Virus record (IMG/VR): IMGVR_UViG_3300033994_001756
Span: 62,001-126,000 of that record
Origin: a virus
DNA: 64,000 bases
Strand: one strand, 5' to 3'
The translations under genes and the position numbers were made by a program. Below, one piece after another: positions 55,434 to 63,396 of the stretch. The notes under the pieces were generated by a model that was not told where the DNA came from, did not search any database, and saw nothing but the letters and a program-made list of their open reading frames with translations. How positions within the stretch are numbered: position 1 is the first letter of the stretch; the number at the start of each line of letters is the position of its first letter.

Positions 55434-55993
55434 GAAGAGAAGTATCAGCTAGAACAAAAAATACGTCACCACTTAATATATTTGAACAGGTAGATGAAAT
55501 AGCAAATAAAAAACGAAAAGGATTTCATGTCCTATCATATAGTTGGTATAAAGATACTGTTGCTGAAGTTGCTAGAAAGAATGATATTTACAAAACATTA
55601 GTTACGCTTGATGAAACTCTCATTCCTTCTGGGGGAAATCTGTATTTGTTTGAGTATAAAGCAACTTGGGCTAGAAAACTTCCATATTATGATGAGTTTC
55701 CTTTAGTGTACATGTTACAGGGTGGGAGGAAATTTTTTGGAGCTAATCTTCACTATTTAAATTATCCAACACGTTATAAAGTTCTACAGAGTATTATAGA
55801 TGGACGACCAACAATTCCTAAGCAGTGCTTTCATAATTATGTTTATGAAGGTCTTGATACACCACTATTTAAAATAAATAGTGACGACTGGATGAAATCT
55901 ATTTTTCTACCACTTGAAAGTTTTGTAAGTAGACAAGCAGGTTCATATAAGCAAGTTAGTAAATCCTTTGTCTGGGGAGACAGCCGTAAATGA
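55430..55993 (+). CDS. Conserved cyanophage structural/assembly protein
   Basis: 187 residues, ATGA overlap with gp4. Contains L-Y-L-F-E-Y-K-A-T-W-A-R-K-L-P-Y-Y-D-E-F-P-L-V near 70, then F-F-G-A-N-L-H-Y-L near 104. Its place beside gp4 recalls T4 gp2 (DNA end protector), but it is shorter than gp2 (274) and I cannot confirm this. Probably head completion or baseplate assembly. Confidence 0.6.
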   Translation: MRREVSARTKNTSPLNIFEQVDEIANKKRKGFHVLSYSWYKDTVAEVARKNDIYKTLVTLDETLIPSGGNLYLFEYKATWARKLPYYDEFPLVYMLQGGRKFFGANLHYLNYPTRYKVLQSIIDGRPTIPKQCFHNYVYEGLDTPLFKINSDDWMKSIFLPLESFVSRQAGSYKQVSKSFVWGDSRK

Positions 55994-56823
55994 GCATCAA
56001 TACTACTCCTACAAATTTTAAAGAGTTCAAAGGTTTTGTACAAAAGCATGGCTTTTCATTAAGTAACTTTTATGATGTGCAATTTTATCTTAGTAATGAT
56101 TCTAGTAACTCTCAACTATTAAAAAATATATTTAATCTTGGGATGTCTGGTAATCCAAATAATACCAGTGCGTCTTTTATGGAAGGACTTTTAAGATTGT
56201 ATGCGGATGAATGTTCTATTCCTGGATACTCAATTTCAACTGGAGATTATAGAATAACCAATACTCCATCAATGAAATATGCATACGGTATAGTAAACAA
56301 TGAAATCACAATATCATTTATTTTAGATGCAGATGCTGAGATCAGAAGAATATTTGATGCCTGGGGTAATTATATTTACGGTAGTGTTTCATTGGCAGGA
56401 GGAGTTGTATCAAATACTAATTTGAATTTTACTACTAAAATAGATCTTGGAAGAACTAGATATCGTGATGATTATGTAACAGATATTGTTGTGGCTAAAT
56501 TGGAAAGACATAGAAGCAGTAAGAAAAATACTAGACCACGAGTTACTAATATTGATTCACAACGTAACTTCTATGATAACAAACAAATTATACCAGATTA
56601 TAATGGACCACTTCTTCCTGGATTTGGAAAACCATTTTACACATATTCAGTTAGGCTGAGGAATTGTTTTCCTACCACTATCTCTTCAATTCCATTGTCC
56701 AGTGGATCTTCTCAGTTAGTTAGAGTGCAGGTAACATTTGAATATGAACTTGCAGTGCCATCATCTCAAACTGCAGGTGGAAGTGTTCTGGAAGCATCAA
56801 ACTGGTTACAGATAACTAACTAA
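55990..56823 (+). CDS. Tail-tube-fold baseplate protein (gp54-like)
   Basis: 277 residues, ATGA overlap with the gene before. Features of the gp19/gp48/gp54 family: D-E-C-S-I-P-G-Y-S-I-S-T-G-D-Y near 75, M-K-Y-A-Y-G-I-V-N-N-E-I-T-I-S-F-I near 95, F-D-A-W-G-N-Y-I near 122, and a C-terminal V-R-L-R-N-C-F-P-T-T-I-S-S-I near 225. T4 gp54 (320) is the tube initiator and is expected near here; the assignment is likely but not certain. Confidence 0.62.
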   Translation: MSINTTPTNFKEFKGFVQKHGFSLSNFYDVQFYLSNDSSNSQLLKNIFNLGMSGNPNNTSASFMEGLLRLYADECSIPGYSISTGDYRITNTPSMKYAYGIVNNEITISFILDADAEIRRIFDAWGNYIYGSVSLAGGVVSNTNLNFTTKIDLGRTRYRDDYVTDIVVAKLERHRSSKKNTRPRVTNIDSQRNFYDNKQIIPDYNGPLLPGFGKPFYTYSVRLRNCFPTTISSIPLSSGSSQLVRVQVTFEYELAVPSSQTAGGSVLEASNWLQITN

Positions 56824-56858: not shown

Positions 56859-57569
56859 ATGCCTTTACCTAAAATTGTAACTCCGACGTATGAATTGCGT
56901 TTACCATCAACTGATCAATTAATTAAATATAGACCATTTCTAGTAAAAGAAGAAAAAGTTCTTCTGATGGCGATGGAATCTGAAGATGAATCTCAGATGA
57001 TTAATGCAGTGAAAACCATCCTAAGAAATTGCATTAACTCTAAAATTAAAGTTGATGACCTAGCAGTATTTGATATCGAATATTTGTTCCTCAATATTCG
57101 TGCTAAGTCTGTGGGAGAACAAATCGAACTCAACATCACTTGCCCAGATGATGGGGAAACTACAGTTCCACTAGAGATTAATGTTGAGGATATTCAGATT
57201 CAAAAGTCTGAAGATCATTCTAGAATTATTTCATTGAATGATACTATTTCTGTTGTAATGAAATACCCTAGTATGGAAATGTTTGTTAAGTCAAACTTTA
57301 CAGCTAGTGTAAAAACTGAAGACGTATTTGAGATTGCTGCATCTTGCATTGAACAAGTTGTAGAAGGGGAAGATGTTTATGAAACCAAGAGTTTCTCTAA
57401 AAAAGAAATTAACGATTTCCTTGATAGCTTAGATACTGCACAGTTTTTACTGATTCAAAAATTCTTTGAGACTATGCCAAAGCTATCTCATACAGTTAAG
57501 GTTACTAACCCAGTAACAAATGTAGAAAGTGATGTGGTACTAGAAGGTCTTGCAGCTTTTTTCGCATAG
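56859..57569 (+). CDS. 26: gp26 baseplate hub/assembly chaperone
   Basis: 236 residues (T4 gp26 208). Starts P-L-P-K-I-V-T-P-T-Y-E-L-R-L-P-S-T, with Y-R-P-F-L-V-K-E-E-K-V-L-L-M-A near 25 and I-T-C-P-D-D-G-E near 110, all typical. It is needed for hub assembly. The last codons hold a T TTT TTC heptamer, and an open -1 frame continues for 62 codons past the stop, suggesting a frameshifted longer product. Confidence 0.9.
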   Translation: MPLPKIVTPTYELRLPSTDQLIKYRPFLVKEEKVLLMAMESEDESQMINAVKTILRNCINSKIKVDDLAVFDIEYLFLNIRAKSVGEQIELNITCPDDGETTVPLEINVEDIQIQKSEDHSRIISLNDTISVVMKYPSMEMFVKSNFTASVKTEDVFEIAASCIEQVVEGEDVYETKSFSKKEINDFLDSLDTAQFLLIQKFFETMPKLSHTVKVTNPVTNVESDVVLEGLAAFFA

Positions 57570-57751
57570 CCCTAGCGCACGAATCGCTAGAAAATTACTT
57601 TAGAATTAATTTTATATTACTTCAACATCATAAGTGGTCTCTTTCCGAAATTGAATGTATGTTACCATGGGAAAGAGAAATTTATGTTCAGATGTTAGTT
57701 GACTATATTGAAGAGGAAAATAATAGAAACAGAACAACAACATCGTTGTAG
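57557..57751 (+). CDS. 51: gp51-like C-terminal extension by -1 frameshift of gp26
   Basis: The slippery heptamer T TTT TTC (57557-57563) lies three codons before the gp26 stop. A -1 shift gives R-I-A-L-A-H-E-S-L-E-N-Y-F and ends after a W-S-L-S-E-I-E-C-M-L-P-W-E-R-E segment with stop at 57749-57751. In this frame there is no ATG, GTG or TTG between the upstream stop (57530) and an ATG deep inside, so it cannot be a normal gene of full length. Tail assembly chaperones of many phages are made this way just before the tape-measure gene, which is the arrangement here. Confidence 0.75.
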   Translation, partial: FFRIALAHESLENYFRINFILLQHHKWSLSEIECMLPWEREIYVQMLVDYIEEENNRNRTTTSL

Positions 57752-57755
57752 TTAA

Positions 57756-60416
57756 ATGCCAGCCAGACAAACTCAGACATCATTTAGATCATTTTCTGAG
57801 TCACTCAGATCTAGAAGACTATCTCCAGTAAATCCATCTGCGATTACTGGAGGGAGAGTGTCTGGCGCAAATATTACAAAGAAAGAAGTAGAAGAATTCG
57901 GCCAGGTCAGAAAAATCCTTGGTGGATTATTAGCATTAGAGAAAAGATATTATCAATTTTTAGGGGATAGGATTCTACATTTTGCTAAAGAAGACGAAAG
58001 AAATAAATTAAAGCAAGAAGAGTCTGAGCAAGAAAAGAAAAAGAAACTAGGAAAGGATAAAGAAAAGAACCCTGTTTTAGAAAAAGCAAAGTCTGATCTA
58101 TCAATGATCGGAGGATTCTTCAAAAATCTTCTGAAGTTTTTCGTTGGGTATAAAGTTCTTGAGTGGGCATCCAAAAAAGAAAACATAAGCAAAATTCAAG
58201 ACTTTGCCAATCTATTCATAACGTTATTTAAATTCATTAGTGCAGTCACCAACTTTGGTGTTGATGTATTAATGAAAACTCTTACGGTTACTTCTAAAGT
58301 AATCAATGGAGTCTTTGATTTCATAGGAAAGGTAGCAGAATTTTTCAGCTTTAGTTGGCTGGGCGGTGGAGTAGAATGGCTATTATCCACCATTGAAAAT
58401 GCTACTTCTGTTATTGCAAGTATTCCAAATGCAATTACATTAGCAGTAAAATTCATGACTGATTTGATTCCAAATTTCCTGGAATCAGTTTTAACCCAAG
58501 GACTATTTGGTAGCCAGAAAGAACTAGAAGGTCAGGCTGATCAAGCAGTAGAAGCAAAGAAACCAGCAGAACCACAGACTCCATCAACAGAATCTGATAC
58601 TGGTAAAAAAGATCTAGGAGAAAAGGCAAAAGAATCACTTTCTAATATTGGAAAGAACATCCTGAAGACTCTGTTCCCAGGGATGGATGTTGCTGCGAAT
58701 ATTGGAGCCAAGATTGGTGGTTCTATTAAATCATTATTCAGTGGACCTAAAACTCAAGAGTCTCTTCCTAAGTTAGCTAAGGGTGGTATCGTAACTAAAC
58801 CAACTGAAGCGATTGTTGGTGAGGCAGGACCAGAAGCAATTCTTCCACTGGATAAATTGGGATCATTTGGTATTGATGGCTTCAAGGCATCTACCAATAA
58901 GATGATTCCTAAATTCATGAAGCTATTGACTTTACCATTTAATATTGTTGGTGCAGGAATCGTAGCATTAATTTCATCTGCAGTATCTAAAATTCCTGGT
59001 GTAGGACAATTTATACTTCCACTGATTTCTAATATTGCATCTAGCTTTGGTTTGCCTGCAGGATTGGTTGCGGGAATGAGTAATTTTGTAGGTGGTGTTA
59101 CATCTGCAATTTCTGGAGGACTTGGCAATGTAGCTGAATTATTTGGGAAGAATGAAGTCAATATACGTCAGCAGAAAGGAGAAGAGTTTTCTCCAACCAA
59201 TGATACTTCAGTTAAAGGATTACTTGGAAACATTCTTGGTGCTCTGATCAGCAAGCAAAAGAAAGCTGCCACCACACCTGGAACCACGCCTCCTCCACCC
59301 CCTTCCACCCCACCAGCCCCATCTGGAACCCCTTCTAGTGGCACTTCAGGGAGCACTCCTCCAGCTACTAAGCCGAGTTCCATATTCACGTATCCAACTC
59401 AAGGAGAGGGTGGTGTTCCTGGGCAAGGCGGTGGAGATAAAATTCCTGCATTGTTAGAACCTCAAGAGTATGTCCTGAATCGAAATGCTGTCAAGGGAAT
59501 GGGTGGTCCAAAAGTATTAGATGCTATTAACTATGGAATGTATCCAAGATTTGGTAGTGGTGGTCCAAATGTTTCAACTAAAAAGTTTTTAAAGCTTGGT
59601 GGTGGATGGGCTCCTGTACCAGAAGATTCTTCTGGTGTATCGTTAGGCAGAGGAATGAGTTCACGACATGGCGGAACAGATATTCCAATGCCAGTAGGAA
59701 CTCCGCTACTTGCACCTTTCGATGGAATGGTGAAAGAAACCGGAAAGAATCCTGATGGGTGGGGAAATTTCATGGTATTAAAAAGTTCCAATGGAGTTTA
59801 TTCTCTGTTTGGACATGTAAGTGATTATTCTAAAAAGCAAGGTGAACAAATTAAAGCGGGTGAACAAGTTGCATTAAGTGGGCATCGACATGGAGGAGGA
59901 AGAAGTAGTGGACCACATTTACATTGGGAAATTGGTAGTTCTTGGAATGGAACTATTGGTGGAAAGATAGATCCAATTAGTTGGTCCTCTGGCAAAGCTA
60001 TTCCATCTGTAAGTGGAAAAACATCATCCAGAACTAATACAGACTCTCCTGATGATTCCACAGAATCTACACCAACATTTACTGCTGAGATGGGAGCCAA
60101 AGCTGCTGAGCAGTTGGGCAAACTATTCCAGATGTTAAATGGTCCTGCACCCACTACAGTCCCAGAAGTTACCACTCCGCAGACTCCTAAAATAACAACT
60201 GCAGTTTCTGGAAACTCCCAAAATCTACAGAGAGTTCAGAGAGAAAATCTAAAAGTTCAGGCTCAAGCTAAACAGCAAACTAAAGCTGGTGGTAATGTAA
60301 TAACTCTAGGCGAGCCAAATAAAACTATTACAGAATCAAGATCTCAACCAATGACATCTACATTAGGAGGCACAACTCCACCGAATTCATTAATCAATTA
60401 TCCATTAGCACCATAA
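57756..60416 (+). CDS. Tape-measure-like tail protein with M23 peptidase domain
   Basis: 886 residues. Helical charged N-terminus (about 40-120), hydrophobic segments near 125-150 (F-F-V-G-Y-K-V-L-E-W-A) and 165-250, the tape-measure signature G-G-I-V-T-K-P-T-E-A-I-V-G-E-A-G-P-E-A near 345, a second hydrophobic part, a Pro/Thr linker, and near 630-750 a LytM/M23 metallopeptidase: R-H-G-G-T-D-I near 643 and G-P-H-L-H-W-E near 718. It fills the role of gp29 or a hub lysozyme, cutting peptidoglycan during DNA entry. Starts 4 nt after the gp51 frame. Confidence 0.72.
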   Translation: MPARQTQTSFRSFSESLRSRRLSPVNPSAITGGRVSGANITKKEVEEFGQVRKILGGLLALEKRYYQFLGDRILHFAKEDERNKLKQEESEQEKKKKLGKDKEKNPVLEKAKSDLSMIGGFFKNLLKFFVGYKVLEWASKKENISKIQDFANLFITLFKFISAVTNFGVDVLMKTLTVTSKVINGVFDFIGKVAEFFSFSWLGGGVEWLLSTIENATSVIASIPNAITLAVKFMTDLIPNFLESVLTQGLFGSQKELEGQADQAVEAKKPAEPQTPSTESDTGKKDLGEKAKESLSNIGKNILKTLFPGMDVAANIGAKIGGSIKSLFSGPKTQESLPKLAKGGIVTKPTEAIVGEAGPEAILPLDKLGSFGIDGFKASTNKMIPKFMKLLTLPFNIVGAGIVALISSAVSKIPGVGQFILPLISNIASSFGLPAGLVAGMSNFVGGVTSAISGGLGNVAELFGKNEVNIRQQKGEEFSPTNDTSVKGLLGNILGALISKQKKAATTPGTTPPPPPSTPPAPSGTPSSGTSGSTPPATKPSSIFTYPTQGEGGVPGQGGGDKIPALLEPQEYVLNRNAVKGMGGPKVLDAINYGMYPRFGSGGPNVSTKKFLKLGGGWAPVPEDSSGVSLGRGMSSRHGGTDIPMPVGTPLLAPFDGMVKETGKNPDGWGNFMVLKSSNGVYSLFGHVSDYSKKQGEQIKAGEQVALSGHRHGGGRSSGPHLHWEIGSSWNGTIGGKIDPISWSSGKAIPSVSGKTSSRTNTDSPDDSTESTPTFTAEMGAKAAEQLGKLFQMLNGPAPTTVPEVTTPQTPKITTAVSGNSQNLQRVQRENLKVQAQAKQQTKAGGNVITLGEPNKTITESRSQPMTSTLGGTTPPNSLINYPLAP

Positions 60417-60417
60417 A

Positions 60418-63396
60418 ATGGAAAACTTAACACCAGTTAGACCAGCTTCCATTATAGGTAATAGTCGTCTAAGAGAAATCAAGACGATAAAGGGTATTGC
60501 ACAAGATTTAGTAAAGCAGAAAAAACAGAATTTTGAATTGGAAAAAAAATTCTTCAAAATTCAAAAGGATACTATTGATAGAAATAAATTAAGAGACAAA
60601 GAAAGACTTCAGGAAGCAAAGAAACCAAAAAGAAAAGCTGGATTTGTTCGTGAAGAACTTAAAGATAAGTCTATAAAACTATTTGATTTGTTCAAGTTCT
60701 TTGTAGGATATAAAGTATTACAGTGGATGTCTCGCAAAGAGAATATTGAATCTATTGGCGAAATCGCCAAAGCCATGAAAAATATTTTTAAGATTATAGA
60801 TCATCTTGCTGGTATTGGAGTTGAAGGAGTTCTTGGTGGACTTCATAGTGTTCTATTTGGAAGCAACTTTTTAGAAAGATTTTTCGGAATATTTAAACTC
60901 ATAGGTGGCTTTTTCATTATCAGGAGACTATTGTTTCCAGGTAAAATACTTAAAGACATTACTTGGATATTAAAGAATAGAAAGTCTATTGGTAAAGTAT
61001 TCCAAGCATTAGGATCTGGAAAACTTAAAGAAGCTCTTGGAAGACTATTTAAACTATTAACTCCAAATTTATATGTTGTATATACCAGAGGATTGACTGC
61101 AGGAGTTAAGCGAGTAATTCTTAAAGTATTTGGAAAGAATACTTTAAAACTCCTGACTAAGGTAGCTTCTAAAATTGGATTCAGAAGTGCAAAAGAGTTT
61201 GTAAAAAATACTGCAAAAAATATTGCCAAGCCTTTAACTAGAATACCTTTCATTGGACCTATACTTGGCTTTGGATTAAATCTAATTTTTGGTGATCCAC
61301 TAGACAAGGCTGCAGTCAAAGCAATTGGTGCTGGGATTGGAGCATGGCTAGGTGGTATTGTAATGGGCGCATTGGGAAGCATCGTTCCTGTTGCAGGAAC
61401 TGCAGCTGGTGCTGGACTTGGTGCATTTGTTGGTGGATTTATTGGAGACTGGGTTGGTGATAAATTATACGGATTCTTTAAAGGATTCACCGCACCTAAA
61501 GAACCTGCACTTGCTGTTGGTGGTATTGTAACCAAGCCAACCAGGGCTTTGATTGGTGAGGCTGGGCCAGAAGCAGTTATTCCGCTACCAAAAATTTATG
61601 ATAGAACTATATTAAATGCTCCTATGGGTATAGTTGCATCTTCTATGATTGGGGGGATAGATGCAGTTATATCTTCATTGGGTCCTGTTGGCTTAACGAT
61701 TAGACCATATGCATCTAGTTTACTAGCTCCATACAGAAGAGAGTTTGGATCTACCAACTATGTGTTCACTTCTAATATTGGAGGTAAGACTACACCTTTA
61801 ACTACTAAACTTCCAGAGCAAAATGACAACGAGGAAGTTGCTAAAATACTTGGTCTGAATAAAACCATTAATTTAATCAAGAAAAAGGAAACTGCAGAAG
61901 AGGCTAAAAAAGCCAGATACAATTCTGGGAATAGTGTTCGTGAAATTCTTGGAGATATTCTAAACAATATTATCAATCTAGACTTTACTAAAAAGTCTAA
62001 AAAGAAAACACGCCCAGGTGATACAACTAGAAATGGGGATATTGGTGAAGTTGGTGGGGAAGTAGATTTATCTGACGCTGACGATAGAACTTTATTAAAG
62101 CAACTAGCACTTGCAGAAGCTGCAGGTGAAGGTGTTGTTGGAATGGCATTGGTTGTCAATTCTGTGTTGAATAGAAAGCGAATTTTAGATGGTGGTGCTT
62201 CTCCTGGATTATTCCATGCAACTGATAAAACTATTCGTGGAATAATATACGCCAAAGACAGTGTTCAATATACTCCAGTTCAAAGTGGCACTATTAACAA
62301 GCAGTGGGGTGAAGGATCACTGAACCTTGCAGAGAAAGCTTTGCAAATGGGAATGGATAAGTCTAAGTTGAGACAAGCATTGGAAGCTGAAGGAGTTAGT
62401 GAAAATAGTATAAAATTTCTAATCAATTCAACTGGATTTAGAAACTATGATGCAGGTGCAAGCAATGATAGATCTCAGAAGGTTAATGAGACTGTATATA
62501 AACGGCACACCTTTAATACTGCGGGTGTCCCTAAGATGCAACAAGGTGGTTTAGTTTCAAGAGGAGATATTACGAGTAAGTTTGGAAATAAAGAATCATT
62601 TAGAAAAAATTCTCATGAAGGAATTGATATTGCATTTCCATCTGGAACTCCTTTATCATTTACTTTAGGTGGAAAATTTCTTAAAGTTGCTAGAAGTTCC
62701 AGTAAAGAAAGAGAAGCAAATGGTGGCTATGGTCAATACATGGATCTTAAGTTATCCGATGGAAAGATTGCCAGACTTGCACACCTAAGCTCTATCCCCA
62801 ATTGGGTAAAGCAGGGTGGCGATTTCACACCAAATGCAATTGTTGCATTAAGTGGTGGCGCACCAGGAGCACCTGGCTCTGGTAGATCTGGTGGGCCACA
62901 TTTACATTTAGAGCAACACACAACTCAAAAAGATTTAGCAGAGACTTTAAATGGTAAGGTTGATCCATTATCACAAGGTCTATTTGGATTATTGAGGAAA
63001 GGTGGTGCCCCTGGAAGTGCAACTAGTGGACCTGCTCAACCTTCACAATCTCCAGCTGCATCCCCGAATACAGTAAAAGAGTCGGAAGAATCTCAGCAAG
63101 AATCGCAACCGCCACCAATTAATTATGATGACATTGCTAAAAATCTAGGAGAATTGTTCCAGATGTTAACTGGAACTCCAAAGACAAATGGTGCTCAGTT
63201 ACAAAAAAATAGTATGGATTATGTCCAAGCATTCAAAGACTTCAAGCCAAATCCAGATACATATATTATGATGGGTGGAACTAATATAATTTCAAGTACT
63301 ACATTGTTGACTCCAATTGAGCAACTAGATTATTCTTCTGGATCATTCTCAAGTATAGATAGCGCAACTGCGTTTAAACTCAACACAAGACTCTAA
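60418..63396 (+). CDS. Second tape-measure-like protein with SleB-type hydrolase and M23 domains
   Basis: 992 residues, paralogous to the previous gene: same F-K-F-F-V-G-Y-K-V-L-Q-W-M segment near 94-106 and G-G-I-V-T-K-P-T-R-A-L-I-G-E-A-G-P-E-A near 364. A Gly-rich membrane-like helix (about 290-345) precedes it. The C-terminal part has a cell-wall hydrolase domain (L-A-L-A-E-A-A-G-E-G near 562) and an M23 peptidase (S-H-E-G-I-D-I near 735, G-P-H-L-H-L-E near 825). Some M23 strands look less complete, so one activity may be structural only. Start overlaps nothing, 2 nt after the previous stop. Confidence 0.7.
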   Translation: MENLTPVRPASIIGNSRLREIKTIKGIAQDLVKQKKQNFELEKKFFKIQKDTIDRNKLRDKERLQEAKKPKRKAGFVREELKDKSIKLFDLFKFFVGYKVLQWMSRKENIESIGEIAKAMKNIFKIIDHLAGIGVEGVLGGLHSVLFGSNFLERFFGIFKLIGGFFIIRRLLFPGKILKDITWILKNRKSIGKVFQALGSGKLKEALGRLFKLLTPNLYVVYTRGLTAGVKRVILKVFGKNTLKLLTKVASKIGFRSAKEFVKNTAKNIAKPLTRIPFIGPILGFGLNLIFGDPLDKAAVKAIGAGIGAWLGGIVMGALGSIVPVAGTAAGAGLGAFVGGFIGDWVGDKLYGFFKGFTAPKEPALAVGGIVTKPTRALIGEAGPEAVIPLPKIYDRTILNAPMGIVASSMIGGIDAVISSLGPVGLTIRPYASSLLAPYRREFGSTNYVFTSNIGGKTTPLTTKLPEQNDNEEVAKILGLNKTINLIKKKETAEEAKKARYNSGNSVREILGDILNNIINLDFTKKSKKKTRPGDTTRNGDIGEVGGEVDLSDADDRTLLKQLALAEAAGEGVVGMALVVNSVLNRKRILDGGASPGLFHATDKTIRGIIYAKDSVQYTPVQSGTINKQWGEGSLNLAEKALQMGMDKSKLRQALEAEGVSENSIKFLINSTGFRNYDAGASNDRSQKVNETVYKRHTFNTAGVPKMQQGGLVSRGDITSKFGNKESFRKNSHEGIDIAFPSGTPLSFTLGGKFLKVARSSSKEREANGGYGQYMDLKLSDGKIARLAHLSSIPNWVKQGGDFTPNAIVALSGGAPGAPGSGRSGGPHLHLEQHTTQKDLAETLNGKVDPLSQGLFGLLRKGGAPGSATSGPAQPSQSPAASPNTVKESEESQQESQPPPINYDDIAKNLGELFQMLTGTPKTNGAQLQKNSMDYVQAFKDFKPNPDTYIMMGGTNIISSTTLLTPIEQLDYSSGSFSSIDSATAFKLNTRL

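Follow-up and report, generated by a model that had tools for sequence, protein, structure and literature searches.

Probable programmed -1 frameshifting unites gp26 and gp51 as one tail assembly chaperone gene in a T4-like phage

The gp26 homologue of the phage examined here and the adjoining frame that corresponds to gp51 very probably form a single gene, with programmed -1 frameshifting producing the long form of a tail assembly chaperone, a reading to which we assign a probability of roughly 0.93. The gene lies in a stretch of viral DNA of 64,000 nucleotides, which is hereafter called the window. The reading rests on the gene anatomy, conservation, selection and paralogy presented below, while the slippage itself, its frequency and the binding roles of the two forms are what we infer. 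In the proposed mechanism, most ribosomes would terminate at 57567 to release a 236-aa short form, and a minority would slip by -1 on T_TTT_TTC, with the P- and A-site tRNA-Phe re-pairing on TTT TTT. The slipped ribosomes would thereby bypass the stop and complete a predicted fusion of 235 + 62 = 297 aa, in which LEGLAAFF is directly followed by RIALAHESLENYF; its predicted junction peptide is VTNPVTNVESDVVLEGLAAFFR, and a peptide such as IALAHESLENYFR would derive from the extension. By analogy with lambda gpG/gpGT, the N-terminal part shared by both forms might coat the tape measure protein and the extension might recruit tail tube subunits.

In terms of gene anatomy (Table 1), the gp26 homologue, with a PF12322 score of 248 bits against a gathering score of 24.5, is situated between a tail-tube-like gene on its 5' side and a tape-measure-like gene with an M23 domain on its 3' side. 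The 3' end of its ORF reads GCA GCT TTT TTC GCA TAG, such that the heptamer ends one codon before the stop. An open -1 frame extends from 57533 as far as the TAG at 57749-57751, and the reading after the slip begins with RIALAHESLENYFRINFILLQHHKWSL / RIALAHESLENYFRINF. A preliminary description of this DNA had proposed an in-frame heptamer near the end of gp26, a -1 frame open for 62 more codons and a tape-measure-like gene next in line, all of which are borne out. It had also described the first two-thirds of the extension as free of start codons, a statement that has to be narrowed: the first ATG/GTG/TTG in the -1 frame is the ATG at 57659, codon 33 of 62, and the start-free stretch is therefore the first half. 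Further, the extension matches phrog_634 (“baseplate hub assembly catalyst”) as well as phrog_150, in the C-terminal part of the latter, which implies that the phrog_150 family itself contains joined forms. The two tape-measure-like genes in tandem downstream both carry a GGIVTKPT.A.VGEAGPEA motif along with the M23 peptidase domain, and either could be the true tape measure.

Table 1. Coordinates of the chaperone gene, its proposed frameshift signals and the flanking genes in the window
Feature	Position	Strand	Basis
Tail-tube-like gene, directly 5' of gp26	55990..56823	+	phrog_45 “tail tube”, E 1.5e-31
gp26 homologue, proposed short tail assembly chaperone form (TAC-N), 236 aa	56859..57569	+	PF12322 T4_baseplate, E 1e-73; phrog_150, E 7e-82
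Slippery heptamer T_TTT_TTC	57557..57563	+	zero frame; T6 heptamer in 178/180 related loci
Zero-frame stop TAG, end of short form	57567..57569	+	ORF reading
-1 frame extension (gp51-like, proposed TAC-C domain), 62 codons + TAG	57563..57751	+	phrog_634, E 9e-26; C-terminal part of phrog_150; dN well below dS; homology to T4 gp51 C-terminus
Weak Shine-Dalgarno-like copy AGAAGG	57542..57547	+	GAGG/GGAGG in many relatives, 9 nt before heptamer; position-specific GAG enrichment
Candidate stimulatory hairpin CTAGCG-CACGAAT-CGCTAG, 8 nt 3' of heptamer	57572..57590	+	fold -7.3 kcal/mol, z -2.6 vs synonymous shuffles
Tape-measure-like gene with M23 peptidase domain, presumed client	57756..60416	+	profile matches
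Second tape-measure-like gene with M23 domain	60418..63396	+	profile matches

Conservation of the heptamer across relatives, which the preliminary description had put forward as a check, was assessed in 180 related loci comprising 80 close loci, loci around distant queries and annotated phages. A script recovered an in-frame T6 heptamer with an open -1 extension in 177 of these (150 TTTTTTC, 26 TTTTTTT and 1 TTTTTTG), at a distance of 0 to 8 codons from the stop. One apparent exception, L100, proved to have an intact T-run and an unrelated internal stop in gp26, which raises the total to 178/180, with the -1 frame always open. Only two loci are genuine exceptions: that of the T-even-type phage AS6, whose genes are separate, and that of Vibrio phage D509. 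The heptamer is found in phages of Synechococcus, Prochlorococcus, Pelagibacter, Vibrio, Aeromonas, Rhizobium, Sinorhizobium, Caulobacter, Stenotrophomonas and Pseudomonas. Given that the + strand of the window contains just 6 copies of TTTTTTC, its recurrence at the end of gp26 is more than would be expected by chance. Synonymous sites point the same way in 52 representatives of <75% protein identity drawn from the 177 heptamer-carrying loci: the codon before TTT variously encodes Ser, Asp, Asn, Ala, His or Thr, yet ends in T in 52/52 (log10 P -14.2 given background codon usage), and TTT is used for the first Phe in 52/52 (log10 P -12.6), where both P values assume independent representatives, which is only approximately true. 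The second Phe is TTC in 42 of the 52.

A run of T could in principle also cause the RNA polymerase to slip, giving a mixed mRNA population in which the frames are joined, and the run is indeed six to eight T long in all relatives but two. Polymerase slippage, however, usually requires longer runs. Here most loci (150 of 177) have six T and no more, followed by C, nothing favors lengthening of the run, and X_XXY_YYZ is the register throughout, even if a run made up wholly of T does not allow a complete distinction between the two mechanisms. On balance, slippage by the polymerase is very improbable as compared with slippage by the ribosome.

Purifying selection acts on the extension from the first post-slip codon onward. 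In the window clade, the 31 codons that separate the slip from the first possible start show a dN of 0.01-0.18 as against a dS of 0.4-2.2; over these codons, synonymous and non-synonymous changes stand at 585:366 in the -1 frame, as opposed to 170:865 and 23:988 in the other frames. The amino acids are likewise conserved from the first codon after the slip. These observations bear on the notion that there is no joint product at all, with the extension being a relic, in the course of decay, of a T-even-like gp51 whose first 200 residues have been lost. Such a “reduced gp51” has a precedent in the literature: cyanophage gp51 has been described as reaching just ~20% of the usual length while remaining similar at the C-terminus, and both it and the marine vibriophage version as lacking the first ~200 residues (Sullivan et al. 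2010, PMC3037559). Decay is nevertheless hard to reconcile with a dN well below dS, with conservation that starts at the slip and with conserved synonymous sites at the heptamer. Moreover, the adjacent gp26, a paralogue of the T4 gp51 N-terminus, provides the part that is missing. This explanation is consequently scarcely credible.

The distribution of start codons bears on another alternative, namely that ribosomes reinitiate once they have terminated at the end of gp26 (translational coupling) and thereby make a separate small gp51, beginning either close to the stop or at a non-standard codon, for instance the ATA at 57566. In P-SSM2, S-PM2 and KVP40 an ATG directly follows the stop or overlaps it, and their annotation reflects this, and Vibrio phage D509 combines such an ATG with the absence of the heptamer. 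The preliminary description had expected relatives to lack a gp51 start, and this holds in part: 69 loci have no ATG, GTG or TTG between the upstream -1 stop and codon 17 after the slip, but the majority do have one within those 17 codons, some right at the stop, so that reinitiation could add some separate gp51 there. In the window and its clade, the extension is selected without an independent start, while some other lineages do have an ATG. Against reinitiation as the general explanation, the window itself offers no ATG/GTG/TTG before codon 33, the residues preceding every possible start are conserved, and the retention of the heptamer in 178/180 loci with synonymous constraint would be left unexplained. 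Taken with the distribution of the upstream GAGG considered below, this makes reinitiation an improbable source of gp51, and ribosomal frameshifting remains the preferred reading.

Loss of the heptamer with the frame kept, which the preliminary description had named as evidence against frameshifting, occurs in a single relative, D509 (L093 4693-4893), a member of a divergent clade in which the corresponding region reads TCA CTT TTC AAG TAA and an ATG overlaps the stop; this lineage may have moved to reinitiation. In one marine clade (L034, L035, L039 and similar loci), the gp26 stop overlaps a -1-frame ATG (TGATG) and the heptamer is kept, which suggests that frameshifting and reinitiation could both operate. 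Public records annotate gp51 from differing internal starts, e.g., in P-SSM2 (L082 3723-3896) and HTVC008M (L094 4753-4890), and leave it unannotated in that of ACG-2014d. The annotated gp51 starts are probably artefacts of the frameshift.

Sequence context around the slip site provides candidates for stimulators of slippage. A Shine-Dalgarno-like GAGG(G) lies 9 nt upstream in about half of the lineages: at the position four codons ahead of the slip codon, Glu is encoded by GAG in 24/32 cases, compared with 6/40 for Glu-before-Gly elsewhere in gp26 (Fisher p 2.6e-7), and anti-Shine-Dalgarno pairing peaks at this position, exceeding that of synonymous shuffles (Wilcoxon p 3e-5). In the window phage the corresponding AGAAGG is weak (z +1.06 for L001, which is identical in gp26). 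The element occurs at similar rates in loci without a start (10/20) and in loci with an ATG nearby (10/17), the latter being some 21 nt away from it; hence, the element is not simply a ribosome-binding site for gp51, and this too speaks against reinitiation. The downstream hairpin of the window phage persists in near relatives and is lost in some. From one lineage to another the downstream hairpins vary and are frequently lacking (overall p 0.008), with z below -4 in L037, L082, L084 and others; one hairpin common to all lineages was accordingly rejected, as it is strong in some and absent in others. A hairpin in which GAGGG would pair with CCCTC around the slip site was also set aside, since its score is modest (Wilcoxon p 0.001), the ribosome would melt it and it may be a by-product of the GAGG. 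In the -1 signal of E. coli dnaX, a heptamer is accompanied by an upstream Shine-Dalgarno-like stimulator and a downstream hairpin (PMC3711429). The balance tips slightly toward a comparable set in these phages, with the GAGG(G) kept by synonymous choice in about half of the lineages and the downstream hairpins being lineage-specific.

The T-even phages offer an independent view of the same domains. Both gp26 and gp51 of T4 match PF12322 and phrog_150; of the 282 positions of the latter, T4 gp51 covers 13-280 and T4 gp26 stops at 235. An HMM of the frameshift extensions matches the C-termini of T-even gp51 (E 4e-7 to 6e-4, Z=1000), and a predicted structural model of one T-even gp51 shows extra helices there. 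Judged by sequence, T4 gp26 and gp51 are paralogues, with gp51 consisting of a gp26-like domain and the extension in one frame. Six T-even gp26 genes, on the other hand, encode the Phe-Phe pair as GAR TTC TTT, which is not slippery and lacks the heptamer, and the T-even gp26 genes carry no -1 extension. From this combination it would follow that a gpG/gpGT-like chaperone has cyanophage gp51 as its C-terminal domain, and that in the T-evens two paralogous genes, 26 for the short and 51 for the long form, yield this same pair of proteins. Frameshifting is reportedly kept in several T4-like groups, T4 itself being said to use genes 26 and 51. The whole 172,253-base virus record contains a single PF12322 gene, and a second one with the C-terminal domain in one frame was not found in it; thus, the two-gene solution of T4 is not used in the examined record. 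The lambda-like scheme that the preliminary description had suggested for gp26/gp51 therefore gains support from conservation, selection and the T-even comparison, all at the level of sequence. T4 gp26 also weakly matches the gp28 family (phrog_1140, E 9e-4); gp28, encoded directly 5' of tape measure gene 29 (T4 gene 28, L081 6349-6882), may be a third relative.

The predicted model of gp26 is confident (pLDDT 87) and, among viral proteins, is matched best by other baseplate hub/gp26 proteins. Among its PDB matches in Foldseek, the HK97 chaperone 2ob9 appears at ranks 8 and 14 with values that are not significant (E 1.0-1.7, probability 0.13-0.28). The T-even gp51 model had no useful match in the PDB by Foldseek, and sequence searches of solved structures with gp26 and T4 gp51 returned nothing relevant.

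G-T frameshifting has been stated to be conserved in long-tailed phages “except T4” (Atkins et al. 2016, PMC5009743), and literature text searches yielded no open paper directly stating frameshifting of cyanophage gp26/gp51. However, the core idea of frameshifted T4-like chaperones is already published: to judge from its title and from the papers citing it (PMC10885494, PMC12846349), the study of Vladimirov, Gautam & Davidson (Virology 2022) identified T4-like chaperones, reported that some phages have both a short copy and a long fused one, and described poly-T signals for slippage within T4-like TAC-N genes. The main claim is hence a well-supported instance of a published prediction, to which are added this genome, the 180-locus survey, the synonymous-site tests and the analysis of the Shine-Dalgarno-like element and hairpins. 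The upstream element and, in some lineages including the window phage, the downstream hairpin are possibly new. The frameshift reading would explain the apparent loss of the first 200 residues in the “gp51” of cyanophages and marine vibriophages noted by Sullivan et al. (2010). It would also endow abundant marine T4-like phages with the same two-form tail chaperone as lambda, and it implies that many public genome records list a gp51 start that ribosomes probably do not use. More generally, one requirement appears to have found two solutions, frameshifting or gene duplication.

When compared with known systems, the arrangement resembles lambda gpG/gpGT, in which a short chaperone and a -1 extension without its own start likewise lie between the tail tube and tape measure genes. 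It differs in its use of T_TTT_TTC, in the contractile tail and in having no detectable sequence relation to the lambda proteins; the lambda slip site is G_GGA_AAG. E. coli dnaX is comparable in combining a slip heptamer with a Shine-Dalgarno-like stimulator on the upstream side and a hairpin on the downstream side, but the gene is unrelated, and in the phages the upstream element is confined to about half of the lineages and the hairpin to a subset. Nothing essential distinguishes the window phage from the T4-like chaperones of Vladimirov et al. (2022). Finally, T4 gp26/gp51 have the PF12322 family in common with it, and T4 gp51 carries the same C-terminal domain, whereas T4 deploys them as two divergently oriented genes, with neither a heptamer nor a -1 extension on gp26.
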